A stretch of DNA of 64,000 bases from Archaeoglobus veneficus SNP6 (GTDB lineage: Archaea > Halobacteriota > Archaeoglobi > Archaeoglobales > Archaeoglobaceae), in NCBI RefSeq assembly GCF_000194625.1, contig NC_015320.1, positions 1-64,000 on the forward strand, in the 5' to 3' direction. This document shows, piece by piece, positions 45,942 through 50,652 of this stretch; positions within the stretch are counted from its first letter, which is position 1, and the number at the start of each line of letters is the position of its first letter. Below the pieces are notes generated by a model. It did not search any database. It had not been told where the DNA came from and saw nothing but the letters and a program-made list of their open reading frames with translations. The position numbers and the translations under genes are program-made.

Positions 45942-45992
45942 GCTGCCGTTACGAGATCATTCTTTAAATTTTGTTCGCTCTAAAGCTCTATG

Positions 45993-47258
45993 CTAAAGCT
46001 CAATGCGATACTTCGTCTTCATTACTCCCTCCCTTATACCGTACCTCGCTTTTCCTTCAGCAATCACTCTGAACGCGTGGTCTATCACCTTCCTGTAGAA
46101 ATCGCAGTAGGGGCTCTTTTCAAACATACTGCCGTTCTCAGCATACACCTCTGCTGGACAGGGTGCTCCACATATGTGCCTGTAAGGACAAATCCGGCAC
46201 TCCTCGATTTTCTCCACCACTCTGCCTCTAACCTCTTTGAACGGGCAGACGTTTGTATTGATTCTTCCATCGTCCAGCACATCTTTAAGCTCCGCCGAAA
46301 ATTCATGGAAGCCTATGAACTCCCCGCAAGGATATACCTTCATATCCGGTGTGATGGCGAAAAATCTGCGTCCCGCTCCACACGGCGAGATGTCGCACTG
46401 CAGCACCCTTGATGTAGGGGCGACGATTCCCAACAGAATGTTGGCAAAATCTCCAATGACGATTCTCTCCCCACTCTCTGTTAACTCTATTGCCCTGTCC
46501 ACCGCCTTTATGAAGTACTCCGCAGCAGCATCGACTGGCGGTCTAAGTTTTCTGCCACCTGCACTCGTGCCTCTCACGGGGTTCATTAGGCATACTTCAA
46601 CCTTCCCGGCGAGGAAATCCACCATTTCGGGAAGCTGGGTATAGTTGTAGCGGTTAATCGTTGTGATAACGTTAAGGTGTTTGTACCCTCGCATTACCCC
46701 TAAAATCCTGCTAACAGCGTTGAAGTGCCCCTCACCCCTCAGAAAATCGTTTGTTTTTATGTCCGGCGAGTCAAACGAGATGCCAAGGTTGACTTCTCTC
46801 TCCATTATAAACTCCATATCTTCGTCGTTCAGAAGAAATCCATTCGTCTGAATCCCATAGTTGAACTGTCTATTTTCCTCGATAACCCTGAAAATTACGT
46901 CTTTGGCAAGCAGAGGTTCCGCTCCGTGGAAGATGATCCACTCAACTCCCGCTTTTTTCAGCACGTCGAGGATCTCGCCCATCTCCTCGTAGTCCATCGT
47001 TTGTCCTCTTCGTTTGACTTCTGGAGGGATGTAGCAGTAGGGGCATGAGGCGTTACAGGAATCGGTTACGTTGATGTAAACGGTTCTGATTGAAACTTCC
47101 GATCTGTAGCGAGCCATCTCCTGCTGTAATATCTCTCTGTTCTCGAGCCACAACCTTTCCACATTTTCAGGAAGTTCCTGCTCCGTTGAGGTTGCCCAGA
47201 AGACGGATTCTGGATCGATGAACACTGAAAAATCGTTAAAGTTAATCATATTGAGCAT
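45993..47258 (-). CDS. Peptide-modifying radical SAM/SPASM enzyme
   Basis: 421 aa from ATG 47256-47258 (SD GGAGGTGG; the longer TTG frame overlaps that SD). Radical SAM site C68-x3-C72-x2-C75 (CNASCPYC), FHGAEPLL, and a SPASM region with CDISPCG, YPCGE, CPF, CRICPYRHICGAPCPAE and CDFYR. This is the plan of PqqE/MftC-type peptide maturases. A 31-codon peptide gene lies just upstream, and a tungsten oxidoreductase operon is divergent, so it probably matures a peptide-derived redox partner or the oxidoreductase itself. Confidence 0.85.
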   Translation of the reverse strand: MLNMINFNDFSVFIDPESVFWATSTEQELPENVERLWLENREILQQEMARYRSEVSIRTVYINVTDSCNASCPYCYIPPEVKRRGQTMDYEEMGEILDVLKKAGVEWIIFHGAEPLLAKDVIFRVIEENRQFNYGIQTNGFLLNDEDMEFIMEREVNLGISFDSPDIKTNDFLRGEGHFNAVSRILGVMRGYKHLNVITTINRYNYTQLPEMVDFLAGKVEVCLMNPVRGTSAGGRKLRPPVDAAAEYFIKAVDRAIELTESGERIVIGDFANILLGIVAPTSRVLQCDISPCGAGRRFFAITPDMKVYPCGEFIGFHEFSAELKDVLDDGRINTNVCPFKEVRGRVVEKIEECRICPYRHICGAPCPAEVYAENGSMFEKSPYCDFYRKVIDHAFRVIAEGKARYGIREGVMKTKYRIEL

Positions 47259-47276
47259 TTTGGCCACCTCCAAAAA

Positions 47277-47372
47277 TTAGAAGGGGGATTTCTCCCCCTG
47301 CATAACATAGTGCGTCAGCCCCCCATCCTCACTATCGCACTCCAGTCTGTACGCCCGGACTTTCTTCTTCAT
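47277..47372 (-). CDS. Small precursor-like peptide (31 aa) upstream of SPASM enzyme
   Basis: ATG 47370-47372 to TAA 47277-47279. Begins MKKKVRAYRLECDSEDGGLT and ends MQGEKSPF: a basic leader followed by a core with Tyr, Glu, a single Cys, Gly-Gly and His-Tyr, residues commonly modified by radical SAM enzymes. Only 18 bp precede the enzyme's ATG. The final codons form a GGGGGA-GAAA-TCCCCC hairpin that may reduce read-through to the enzyme so that the peptide is made in excess. Not a known family to me. Confidence 0.65.
   Translation of the reverse strand: MKKKVRAYRLECDSEDGGLTHYVMQGEKSPF
47283..47298 (-). terminator. GAAA-tetraloop hairpin / attenuator
   Basis: GGGGGA-GAAA-TCCCCC on the minus strand, overlapping the last peptide codons and preceding the enzyme start. 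Perfect 6-bp stem with a GNRA loop. Confidence 0.55.
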
Positions 47373-47519
47373 GCTATACATAGAATTGCCGAAACTTAAC
47401 TGTCTTTCAGTAGAAGCAAAGGTTTTTCTGCTTAATTACAGATATCATACACCGCAATCTATTTAAAAGTGCAGTGTAGTCTTCCTATAATAATTATAAT
47501 GAACTCGGGGGCATTCACG

Positions 47520-48494
47520 ATGACCAGTAACCTGAAAGAAAGACTGAAAGAATCAGGTAAAACATTCCTCGTCGGCATCGCCGGCGATAGCGGTTCGGGA
47601 AAGACGACTTTTGCAAACGCCATAAGGAATTTGCTTGGCAACGACATCGTTTCGAGTATAACTCTCGACGACTACCACGTTTACGACAGGCAGACGAGAT
47701 GGAAGCTCAACATAACACCTCTGCATCCCGAAGCCAACAACCTCAAGCTCGTTGAAACCCACCTCATGCTGTTAAAGAAGGGGGAAACGATAAGAAAGCC
47801 AACCTACGACCACAGCACTGGCACTTTTGGTGAGTGGGAGGATTTCACGCCAACTCCAGTCGTTATCGTCGAGGGTTTGCATACTCTATACGATGGTCTT
47901 CGCAATTACCTCGACTTCAGGATTTTCGTTGATCCTGCCCGCTACATAAAACGCAGGTGGAAGATAAAGAGAGATGTCGAGGAGAGAGGCTACAACAGGC
48001 AGAAAGTCGTTGAAGAGATAATCAGGAGAGAATCTGACTACAAGCGGTACATAGACTTCCAGAAGATATACGCCGATGTTGTAATCAAGATATTTCCTAC
48101 AGCTTTGCAGAGCGTTGAGCGCATAACATACCTCACCGAAGCGCCGCCCGAACTGTACAAGGTTAGGCTGATTCTCAAGAGTGGAGATTTTGTGCCGACC
48201 GAGCCAATAAAGCTTGATATAGACCTATCAGCATTTGTAAGGGCGAGCGAGAAGGATTTCGCTCTTGGCTTCTTCTCCGACTACTACTACGAGAAGCCCG
48301 CAAGCTTCATAGACATCGACGGCCTGATGAACGTTGAACTTTTCTCGACGTTGCTGGACATTCTGAAGAAGGAAGTTGGAGCGGACGTGGAGTGGAAGAT
48401 GAATACATACGTGAACGCAATAGAGGTTGCCAAGCTCCTTGTCTGCTGGAGATTTCTCGAACTCATAAAATTCAGACTGGAGGCGGAATTATGA
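47520..48494 (+). CDS. Phosphoribulokinase-like kinase (archaeal type)
   Basis: About 324 aa. P-loop GDSGSGKT at residues 22-29, then LDDYHVYDR, PLHPEANN, KPTYDHSTG and VIVEGLHTLY, all PRK/uridine-kinase-family motifs in PRK order. Archaeal PRK makes ribulose-1,5-bisphosphate in the reductive hexulose-phosphate route or for related sugar metabolism. ATG 47520 is used; ATG 47499 is an alternative, both after a TATTTAAAAG promoter (about 47459). Overlaps the ferredoxin gene (ATGA). Confidence 0.83.
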   Translation: MTSNLKERLKESGKTFLVGIAGDSGSGKTTFANAIRNLLGNDIVSSITLDDYHVYDRQTRWKLNITPLHPEANNLKLVETHLMLLKKGETIRKPTYDHSTGTFGEWEDFTPTPVVIVEGLHTLYDGLRNYLDFRIFVDPARYIKRRWKIKRDVEERGYNRQKVVEEIIRRESDYKRYIDFQKIYADVVIKIFPTALQSVERITYLTEAPPELYKVRLILKSGDFVPTEPIKLDIDLSAFVRASEKDFALGFFSDYYYEKPASFIDIDGLMNVELFSTLLDILKKEVGADVEWKMNTYVNAIEVAKLLVCWRFLELIKFRLEAEL

Positions 48495-48925
48495 AGAGGC
48501 TAATTATAAAAGACATAGAGAAGTGTGTTGGTTGTGGAATGTGTATGTACGCCTGCTCGAGGCGAAAAGGTGAGGCAGGTATAGACTCATCTGGCATTCT
48601 CGCTGTAAGCCTTAGCGGTTTTGAGAGGGGTGCAACTGTCATCTTTTGCAGAGCATGCATCGAGCCCCCATGCGTACAGGTATGCCCTACGAATGCTTTA
48701 AGACCAAGAAAGGGTGGAGGGGTCGTTTACAACGAGAAGGACTGCATAGCATGTGGTAACTGCATAAATGCCTGCACGATCGGAGCGATATTCAGAAGAA
48801 GTGACGGAAAACCGGCAGTCTGCATACACTGCGGCTACTGCGCGAACTACTGCCCACACGGCGTTCTCGGCTTTGAGGAAATAACTGCAGGAAAAGTGGT
48901 AACGGAGGAGGTGGAAGCATGCTGA
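48491..48925 (+). CDS. Four-cluster ferredoxin-like iron-sulfur protein
   Basis: 144 aa with CVGCGMCMYAC, CRACIEPPCVQVC, CIACGNCINAC and CIHCGYCANYC motifs, enough for up to four [4Fe-4S] clusters, as in the small subunits of tungsten or DMSO-reductase-like enzymes. ATG overlaps the PRK stop, SD GGAGGCGG. Its end overlaps the AOR start by 7 bp, so it is almost certainly the AOR electron partner. Confidence 0.9.
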   Translation: MKRLIIKDIEKCVGCGMCMYACSRRKGEAGIDSSGILAVSLSGFERGATVIFCRACIEPPCVQVCPTNALRPRKGGGVVYNEKDCIACGNCINACTIGAIFRRSDGKPAVCIHCGYCANYCPHGVLGFEEITAGKVVTEEVEAC

Positions 48926-50652
48926 CTAGGGTGCTAACAATAGACCTCTCCAGCTATACATACAGCATTGACGACAGAAGAGACCTCTTTGAGGAATGGT
49001 TGGGCGGCGTGGGTGTTGCAGTTCAGCTTTTAAAGGAGAACATGGATGTTAACGCCGATCCGTTAAGCGAGGAGAACGTCATAGTTTTCGCTGTAGGGCC
49101 ATTAACGTCAGCCTATCCTCTTGCATCAAAAACCGTTGCTCTATTCAAGAGTCCGCTAACGGGAAACCTTGGTGAAAGCCATGCAGGTGGGAGAACTGCG
49201 ACAAGCATGGCAAACGCCGGATACGGAGCTATAGTGATAAAGGGAAGAAGCAAGAAGCCCGTTTACGTTGTAATAGATAACGGCAAGGTGCACTTCAGGG
49301 ACGCCAGAGTTATCTGGGGAATTGAGGATTCACTCATAGTCGGAAGGATCATTGCAGAAAAAGAGCCCGGAAGAGGTACGAGGACTGTAATGAGGATAGG
49401 AGGGGGCGGAGAGAAGCTTGTAAGATACGCGTGCGTTACGACGGAGACCTACAGACATTTCGGTAGGCTTGGACTGGGAGCCGTCTTCGGTTCCAAGAAT
49501 CTCAAGGCCATCGTCATCAACGGGAGAGGTAGCAGAAAGGTCGTGAATAGAAGGGCGTACAGAGAAATTTACGACGAGATATTCAGGCTGGCAATTGAAT
49601 CCAACGCCATGAAGAAATACCATTTAATCGGCACCGCCGTCAACGTAAACCCCCTCAACGAGATTGGAGGTTTGCCAACTAAAAACCTGAAACAGACGAG
49701 GTTTGAGAATGCAGAGGAGATAAGTGGTGAGAGTCTTGCAGAAAGGATAGGCAGAAGGGTTGCGTGCAGCCATTGCCCGGTTGCGTGCGTTCACATAGCT
49801 GTTTTAAGGCTGCCGTACGAGAACGAGCCGTATTTCTACAAGACCATCATGATCTCCTACGACTACGAACTGATATACTCCCTCGGCTCAATGCTTGGAA
49901 TCGGTTCGAAGGAGGGACTGCTCAGGCTAATCCACAGAGTTGAAACGTACACACTTGATGCCATGAGTACGGGAGTGTGCCTTGCTTGGGCAACGGAGGC
50001 GCTTGAAAGAGGAATTATAAGCAAAGAAGATACCATCGTCGATTTGAAGTTTGGAGACTGTGATGCCTACATCAAGGCGATAGACTACATAGTCAGACAA
50101 CCAAACGACTTCTACAAGAATTTGGCGTACGGTGTTGAGCACGCAGCGAAGGTTTACGGTGGAAAAGAGTTCGCCCTAACTTTCGGTAAAAACGAAATGC
50201 CCGGATACCATACGGGATATGCAGCACACATAGGCTACCTCATTGGACTGAGACATAGCCATCTCGATAATGCGGGCTACTCGCTGGATCAGAAGCTCAA
50301 GGAGTATCCCGAGCCAGAAGAGCTCGTCGGAAAGCTCATCAAAGAGGAGCAGTGGAGACAGGTGCTTTCGAGTCTCGTGGTGTGCTTCTTTGCAAGAGGT
50401 GTTTATACGGCAGATATTGTATGCAAAGCCTTCAAGCCTCTCGGAATTGAAATAGGTGAGGACGAACTGAACAGGATAGGGGAAAAAATCTACTTCGAAA
50501 AGCTGAGACTGAAGAAGCAGATGGGCTTTGACGTGAGCAAACTCAGGATACCGAAGAGGATATTCGAAGTTGAAACACCCCATGGAAAGCTGAGCGAAGA
50601 CTACATCAGAAGAGCACTCGACTACTACGCAAAGATCGTCAGCGAAGTATAA
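48919..50652 (+). CDS. Tungsten aldehyde:ferredoxin oxidoreductase family enzyme
   Basis: 577 aa AOR-family protein. N-terminal pterin-binding domain (LFEEWLGGVGVAVQLL, SPLTGNLGESHAGGR), then the [4Fe-4S] site C283-x2-C286-x3-C290 (CSHCPVAC) and C354 after D347 (DAMSTGVC). Oxidises aldehydes or similar substrates, passing electrons to ferredoxin. Substrate unknown. The nearby SPASM enzyme and peptide suggest an unusual additional cofactor. Confidence 0.93.
   Translation: MLTRVLTIDLSSYTYSIDDRRDLFEEWLGGVGVAVQLLKENMDVNADPLSEENVIVFAVGPLTSAYPLASKTVALFKSPLTGNLGESHAGGRTATSMANAGYGAIVIKGRSKKPVYVVIDNGKVHFRDARVIWGIEDSLIVGRIIAEKEPGRGTRTVMRIGGGGEKLVRYACVTTETYRHFGRLGLGAVFGSKNLKAIVINGRGSRKVVNRRAYREIYDEIFRLAIESNAMKKYHLIGTAVNVNPLNEIGGLPTKNLKQTRFENAEEISGESLAERIGRRVACSHCPVACVHIAVLRLPYENEPYFYKTIMISYDYELIYSLGSMLGIGSKEGLLRLIHRVETYTLDAMSTGVCLAWATEALERGIISKEDTIVDLKFGDCDAYIKAIDYIVRQPNDFYKNLAYGVEHAAKVYGGKEFALTFGKNEMPGYHTGYAAHIGYLIGLRHSHLDNAGYSLDQKLKEYPEPEELVGKLIKEEQWRQVLSSLVVCFFARGVYTADIVCKAFKPLGIEIGEDELNRIGEKIYFEKLRLKKQMGFDVSKLRIPKRIFEVETPHGKLSEDYIRRALDYYAKIVSEV

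Follow-up and report, generated by a model that had tools for sequence, protein, structure and literature searches.

The stretch of DNA analysed here (the window) comprises the first 64,000 nucleotides (nt) of the complete genome of Archaeoglobus veneficus SNP6, 1,901,943 bases long, and carries on its reverse strand a two-gene locus, cbpAB, in which the gene for a short precursor peptide (CbpA) is followed by that for a radical SAM/SPASM enzyme (CbpB). A preliminary description, made from the sequence alone, had placed a 31-codon peptide gene 18 nt before a SPASM radical SAM gene, and this arrangement was confirmed at 47277-47372(-). The distance runs from the cbpA stop to the ATG of cbpB at 47258; the open reading frame list had started cbpB at a TTG (47273), and an alternative cbpA start at 47381 gives a 34-codon reading.

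The CbpA peptide, the CbpB enzyme and their pairing

Alignment of CbpB to the curated model TIGR04163 ('peptide-modifying radical SAM enzyme CbpB') gave a score of 486.4 bits (cut-off 375) and spanned model positions 6-425 of 428. The radical SAM motif takes the form CxxxCxYC and the SPASM cysteines are in place, with C68, C72, C75, C288, C293, C311, C354, C357, C363, C367 and C385 invariant in 26 homologues. Scores under the respective cut-offs were obtained for the tungsten-oxidoreductase radical SAM maturase (TIGR04317, 64.6 bits, far under the cut-off of 380), PqqE (TIGR02109, 60.7 bits, cut-off 381) and MftC (66.9 bits, cut-off 265). An AlphaFold2 model of CbpB (mean predicted local distance difference test 89, predicted template modelling score 0.89) had its best fold match in CteB (5why; E 6e-22, template modelling score 0.71), with a sulfatase-maturating enzyme next, and sequence profiles agreed with the fold, the best sequence match among solved structures being CteB as well (5wgg). 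Thioether-forming chemistry has been described for CteB, the maturase of the SCIFF peptide, and its relatives (PMC8326336).

The peptide scored 32.8-33.2 bits against TIGR04164 ('modified peptide precursor CbpA') over 20 of the 25 model positions, just below the curated cut-off of 35 and thus short of the score for membership. The same was true of 10 of the 12 archaeal CbpA peptides tested, their identical motif notwithstanding; archaeal peptides seem to call for a more lenient cut-off, and because so many of those tested fall under it, most archaeal CbpA are probably missed by automatic annotation. What lies directly upstream of CbpB in the window is nevertheless a short peptide with a C...G[GAT]L[ST]H[YF] core, and on motif, position and strict pairing it is classed as a CbpA-like partner.

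The core follows the pattern C-x(3-5)-G-[GAT]-L-[ST]-H-[YF], with G, L and H invariant across 38 peptides, Cys nearly so, and Tyr replaced by Phe in one family (f9) and in genome G020. Since the ratio of non-synonymous to synonymous polymorphism on cbpA was about 0.22 (among equal-length pairs), the frame is under purifying selection. The basic leader noted earlier exists in the window species, whose peptide contains KKK, and is peculiar to that species rather than general; most relatives' CbpA begin near a YR..C motif and so have almost no leader.

CbpB exceeded its cut-off in 39 of 393 genomes of the phylum, leaving 38 further loci once the window is set aside. A CbpA-like frame was found upstream of CbpB in every one of these (38/38), including a stop-interrupted frame in G020 and a shortened one in G136. 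A degenerate-pattern scan of 55 Archaeoglobaceae genomes for GGLTHY[VIM] returned exactly one site, adjoining CbpB, in each of the 27 genomes bearing the enzyme and none in the 28 without it, while a backward control pattern had no matches. Co-presence of the two genes was therefore well beyond chance (27 genomes with both, 28 with neither; Fisher p = 2.6e-16, kinship ignored), and neither extra cbpA copies nor orphan peptides in CbpB-less genomes were seen in the 55. The pairing of CbpA and CbpB is shown to be strictly 1:1, and its conservation extends beyond Archaea to a plasmid of bacterial origin. The preliminary description had proposed a ribosomal peptide paired with a SPASM radical SAM maturase and had looked to relatives for a conserved short frame upstream of this SPASM family; the pair holds, one to one, and the frame is there.

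Transcript features, neighbourhood and spread of cbpAB

The coordinates of the locus and its surroundings are collected in Table 1.

Table 1. Features of the cbpAB locus and adjoining genes in the window
Feature	Position	Strand	Remarks
cbpA	47277..47372	-	31-aa precursor peptide MKKKVRAYRLECDSEDGGLTHYVMQGEKSPF; TIGR04164 33 bits; conserved in relatives
cbpB	45993..47258	-	radical SAM/SPASM peptide maturase, 421 aa from ATG 47258; TIGR04163 486 bits
cbpB ribosome-binding site GGAGGTG	47265..47271	-	from sequence; similar in relatives
GAAA-loop hairpin	47282..47299	-	made of final cbpA codons, not spacer
T5 run	47272..47276	-	immediately 3' of cbpA stop; may act as a weak archaeal terminator between the two genes
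cbpAB segment (peroxiredoxin gene instead in sister species G224)	45978..47414		nucleotide-homology breakpoints
Phosphoribulokinase-family kinase	47499..48494	+	NF005655 290 bits, cut-off 236; judged outside cbpAB system
Polyferredoxin, AOR partner	48491..48925	+	Fer4 domains; judged outside cbpAB system
AOR-family oxidoreductase, 577 aa	48919..50652	+	AFOR_N and AFOR_C; judged outside cbpAB system

A GAAA-loop hairpin had been described as separating the two genes and as a possible device for setting their stoichiometry. It is misplaced in that account, being formed by the codons for GEKSPF at the 3' end of cbpA. In the window its minimum free energy was stronger than that of synonymous recodings (z = -3.9, p = 0.003), and the 71-nt stretch holding the hairpin and its flanks reached only z = -1.65 against dinucleotide shuffles. 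The hairpin, real in the window, is absent from many relatives, with p < 0.05 against recodings in just 6 of 39 loci, and was rejected as a conserved stoichiometry device; the conserved element is the T-run alone. Five or more consecutive T immediately followed the stop codon at 28 of 39 cbpA loci versus 56 of 537 other genes, an enrichment that will be partly shared descent. Oligo-T runs terminate archaeal transcription, for which reason a fraction of transcripts could plausibly end between the two genes; the run may lower cbpB transcription and so leave the peptide in excess over the enzyme.

The CbpB tree departs from taxonomy: G020, of another family, groups with G184, three f9 proteins group with G150, and G141 pairs with G136 of another genus. 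The window CbpB is nearest to that of G141 (66% identity). Genomic surroundings of cbpAB also vary between clades, and the genes 3' of cbpB give no shared theme. The varied neighbourhoods and the tree pattern imply a two-gene cassette that moves horizontally. No transposon ends were found flanking it, only a 13-nt imperfect tandem repeat, CTAAAGCTC[TA]ATG (45980-46005), which spans the cbpB stop and lies close to one boundary of the segment that G224 lacks.

Outside the phylum, a search of plasmids gave one true CbpB, annotated as cbpA-cbpB on a Methylovirgula plasmid, whose CbpA keeps C...GTGLSHYV. On this plasmid (Methylovirgula sp. HY1, L153:14762-19711) pqqA-pqqD-pqqE follow cbpA-cbpB at a distance of about 2 kb, and a Crp/Fnr regulator is encoded in the interval. 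The phage search for CbpB gave, among the matches listed, only distant radical SAM proteins of about 25% identity. A scan of genome contigs yielded just two cbpB fragments (L038 and L039), both from a single Thermoproteota metagenome-assembled genome of doubtful assembly (JAOZGP01). These pieces are about 90% identical to the window cbpB, and L038 links position 46871 with the 51189 region, a junction that points to chimerism or misbinning of the contig.

The divergent AOR operon

Ferredoxin and AOR-family genes had been reported across the divergent promoter from cbpAB, and a peptide cofactor for a tungsten enzyme had been proposed. Both genes are present, but the first one past the promoter is a phosphoribulokinase-family kinase. 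The sister species (G224) retains this kinase gene, which in an archaeon heads a ferredoxin-AOR operon, and G141 and G069 likewise have it within their AOR loci.

The proposal would have CbpB turn CbpA into a cofactor, redox-active or metal-binding, that serves the divergent AOR-family enzyme; the adjacency in this single genome speaks in its favour, as does the existence of peptide-derived redox cofactors, PQQ (pyrroloquinoline quinone) and mycofactocin among them. However, kinase, ferredoxin and AOR were all absent from the vicinity of CbpB at the 38 other loci (0/38), so that the SPASM enzyme never stands near AOR-type genes in relatives; weak ferredoxin-like matches in L062 and L079 were discarded as not orthologous to the window ferredoxin. 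A close AOR orthologue (identity of at least 60%) exists in 38 of the 55 Archaeoglobaceae genomes, and its occurrence was not associated with that of CbpB, either in all 55 (odds ratio 0.57, p = 0.39) or in genomes at least 90% complete (odds ratio 0.22, p = 0.085). The conserved partner of AOR is ferredoxin, found beside it in 12 of 12 AOR loci examined, and not cbpAB. Sister species G224 retains the AOR operon without cbpAB: gene order is the same on both sides, kinase and AOR are 95% and 92% identical to those of the window, and a peroxiredoxin gene replaces 45978-47414, with homology to L110 breaking at 45977 and 47415. That peroxiredoxin gene (L110:4909-5837) is frameshifted in the draft.

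Neighbourhoods, co-occurrence, sister-species synteny and the low TIGR04317 score are all contrary to the AOR link, which was rejected as hardly credible. cbpAB and AOR stand side by side through a chance local gain or loss of genes, and the CbpA product does not serve the neighbouring enzyme as a dedicated cofactor.

Proposed function and its alternatives

CbpB very probably modifies CbpA. We consider it likely that cbpAB is a horizontally mobile pair of the RiPP (ribosomally synthesised and post-translationally modified peptide) type, in which CbpB uses radical chemistry to cross-link the CbpA core, perhaps through a Cys thioether. Going by family and fold, the CxxxCxYC cluster and S-adenosylmethionine would generate a 5'-deoxyadenosyl radical, the peptide would be held close to the SPASM clusters, and the cross-link would be placed within C-x(3-5)-G-[GAT]-L-[ST]-H-[YF]. 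Thioethers are formed by several of the enzymes to which CbpB is closest in sequence and fold, namely PapB, CteB and QhpD, and for that reason a thioether involving the conserved Cys would be the most probable bond; other radical reactions are possible.

Several observations weigh against this proposal. The spacing from Cys to GGL is variable, which is unusual for a ring of fixed size. In the AlphaFold2 model, residues 1-53 of CbpB form three strands and one helix before the radical SAM barrel begins, an N-terminus too short for the strict definition of an RRE domain, namely three strands followed by three helices (PMC12710340). Moreover, in G020 (L076) an in-frame TAA, some 180 nt 5' of the stretch matching cbpB, cuts cbpA after GGLTHFV; the frame beyond it reads KEENFPF and then ends at a stop whose spacing is the usual one, and the TAA may be a mutation, a sequencing error or the end of a shortened peptide.

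One alternative is that CbpA yields a small free cofactor, similar to PQQ or mycofactocin, for an unlinked enzyme, with the Tyr/Phe and His of the core as the atoms kept. Conservation of His-[YF]-[VIM] in a core preceded by little leader, the patchy accessory distribution, the lack of any exporter, peptidase or immunity gene conserved beside the pair, and the proximity to pqqADE in Methylovirgula fit such a product, but the Phe of f9 and G020 is unlike the Tyr of PqqA or MftA, and no enzyme for release or finishing conservedly adjoins the pair, leaving this reading unlikely. Horizontal mobility would also suit a secreted antimicrobial or signalling RiPP of the ranthipeptide kind, and the nearest NCBIfam relatives of CbpB include ranthipeptide and sactipeptide maturases; yet a conserved transporter, protease or immunity gene is missing beside the pair, and the CbpA core hardly varies from phylum to phylum, which sets it apart from most antagonistic peptides, so we give this possibility a slim chance.

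A role in cobamide (B12-like) metabolism, for instance with modified CbpA as a lower-ligand source handled by CobT, the phosphoribosyltransferase of cobamide synthesis, is suggested by cobT (TIGR03160) lying directly 3' of cbpAB, 5-64 nt after cbpB, in five of seven f7 and three of three f9 CbpB genomes. These two distant families have CbpB in separate regions of the tree, and a ribbon-helix-helix/AIRS-like gene is divergent in most of their cbpAB-cobT genomes. Such a role is highly unlikely: CobT of this type was above cut-off in none of the Archaeoglobaceae genomes, yet 27 have cbpAB, and among f7 genomes CobT occurs in 42 of 51 but cbpAB in only 7. The AIRS-like gene, for its part, is found both with and without cbpAB in Archaeoglobaceae. 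Their distributions do not match, and CobT and the AIRS-like gene were rejected as obligatory partners; the association with cobT is not general and stands as a functional lead. In one genome (G161:C187:13249-14336) a broken cbpB lies beside a broken ribbon-helix-helix/AIRS-like gene, as though the two were decaying together. We regard as quite unlikely the broader possibility that CbpA gives rise to a novel small molecule or cofactor of peptide origin serving anaerobic metabolism in these archaea, possibly tied to cobamides where cobT shares the operon.

By its profile match, cbpAB belongs to an already named NCBIfam family (TIGR04163/TIGR04164; CbpB/CbpA, 'cobopep'), for which our literature search found no papers naming either model or cobopep. 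Gene order is the same as in annotated bacterial members, whose peptides end in KR, whereas most archaeal ones end in SPF. Like CbpB, CteB and PapB-type ranthipeptide maturases are SPASM enzymes acting on Cys-containing peptides; CteB, however, is only about 19% identical to CbpB, has a full N-terminal RRE and acts on a peptide (SCIFF) with six cysteines, compared with one conserved Cys in CbpA. PQQ (PqqA/PqqE) and mycofactocin (MftA/MftC) likewise start from a short ribosomal peptide encoded beside a SPASM radical SAM enzyme, but no conserved finishing genes stand beside cbpAB and CbpB is under the PqqE and MftC cut-offs.

The analysis removes a tempting but wrong link to a tungsten enzyme and shows that the curated CbpA cut-off misses most of the archaeal members tested. 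Its value lies in a well-defined, testable substrate-enzyme set and not in a new kind of system: 27 matched pairs within a single archaeal family, together with a sharp core motif, make the chemistry directly testable, and sister genomes with and without cbpAB provide a natural experiment.

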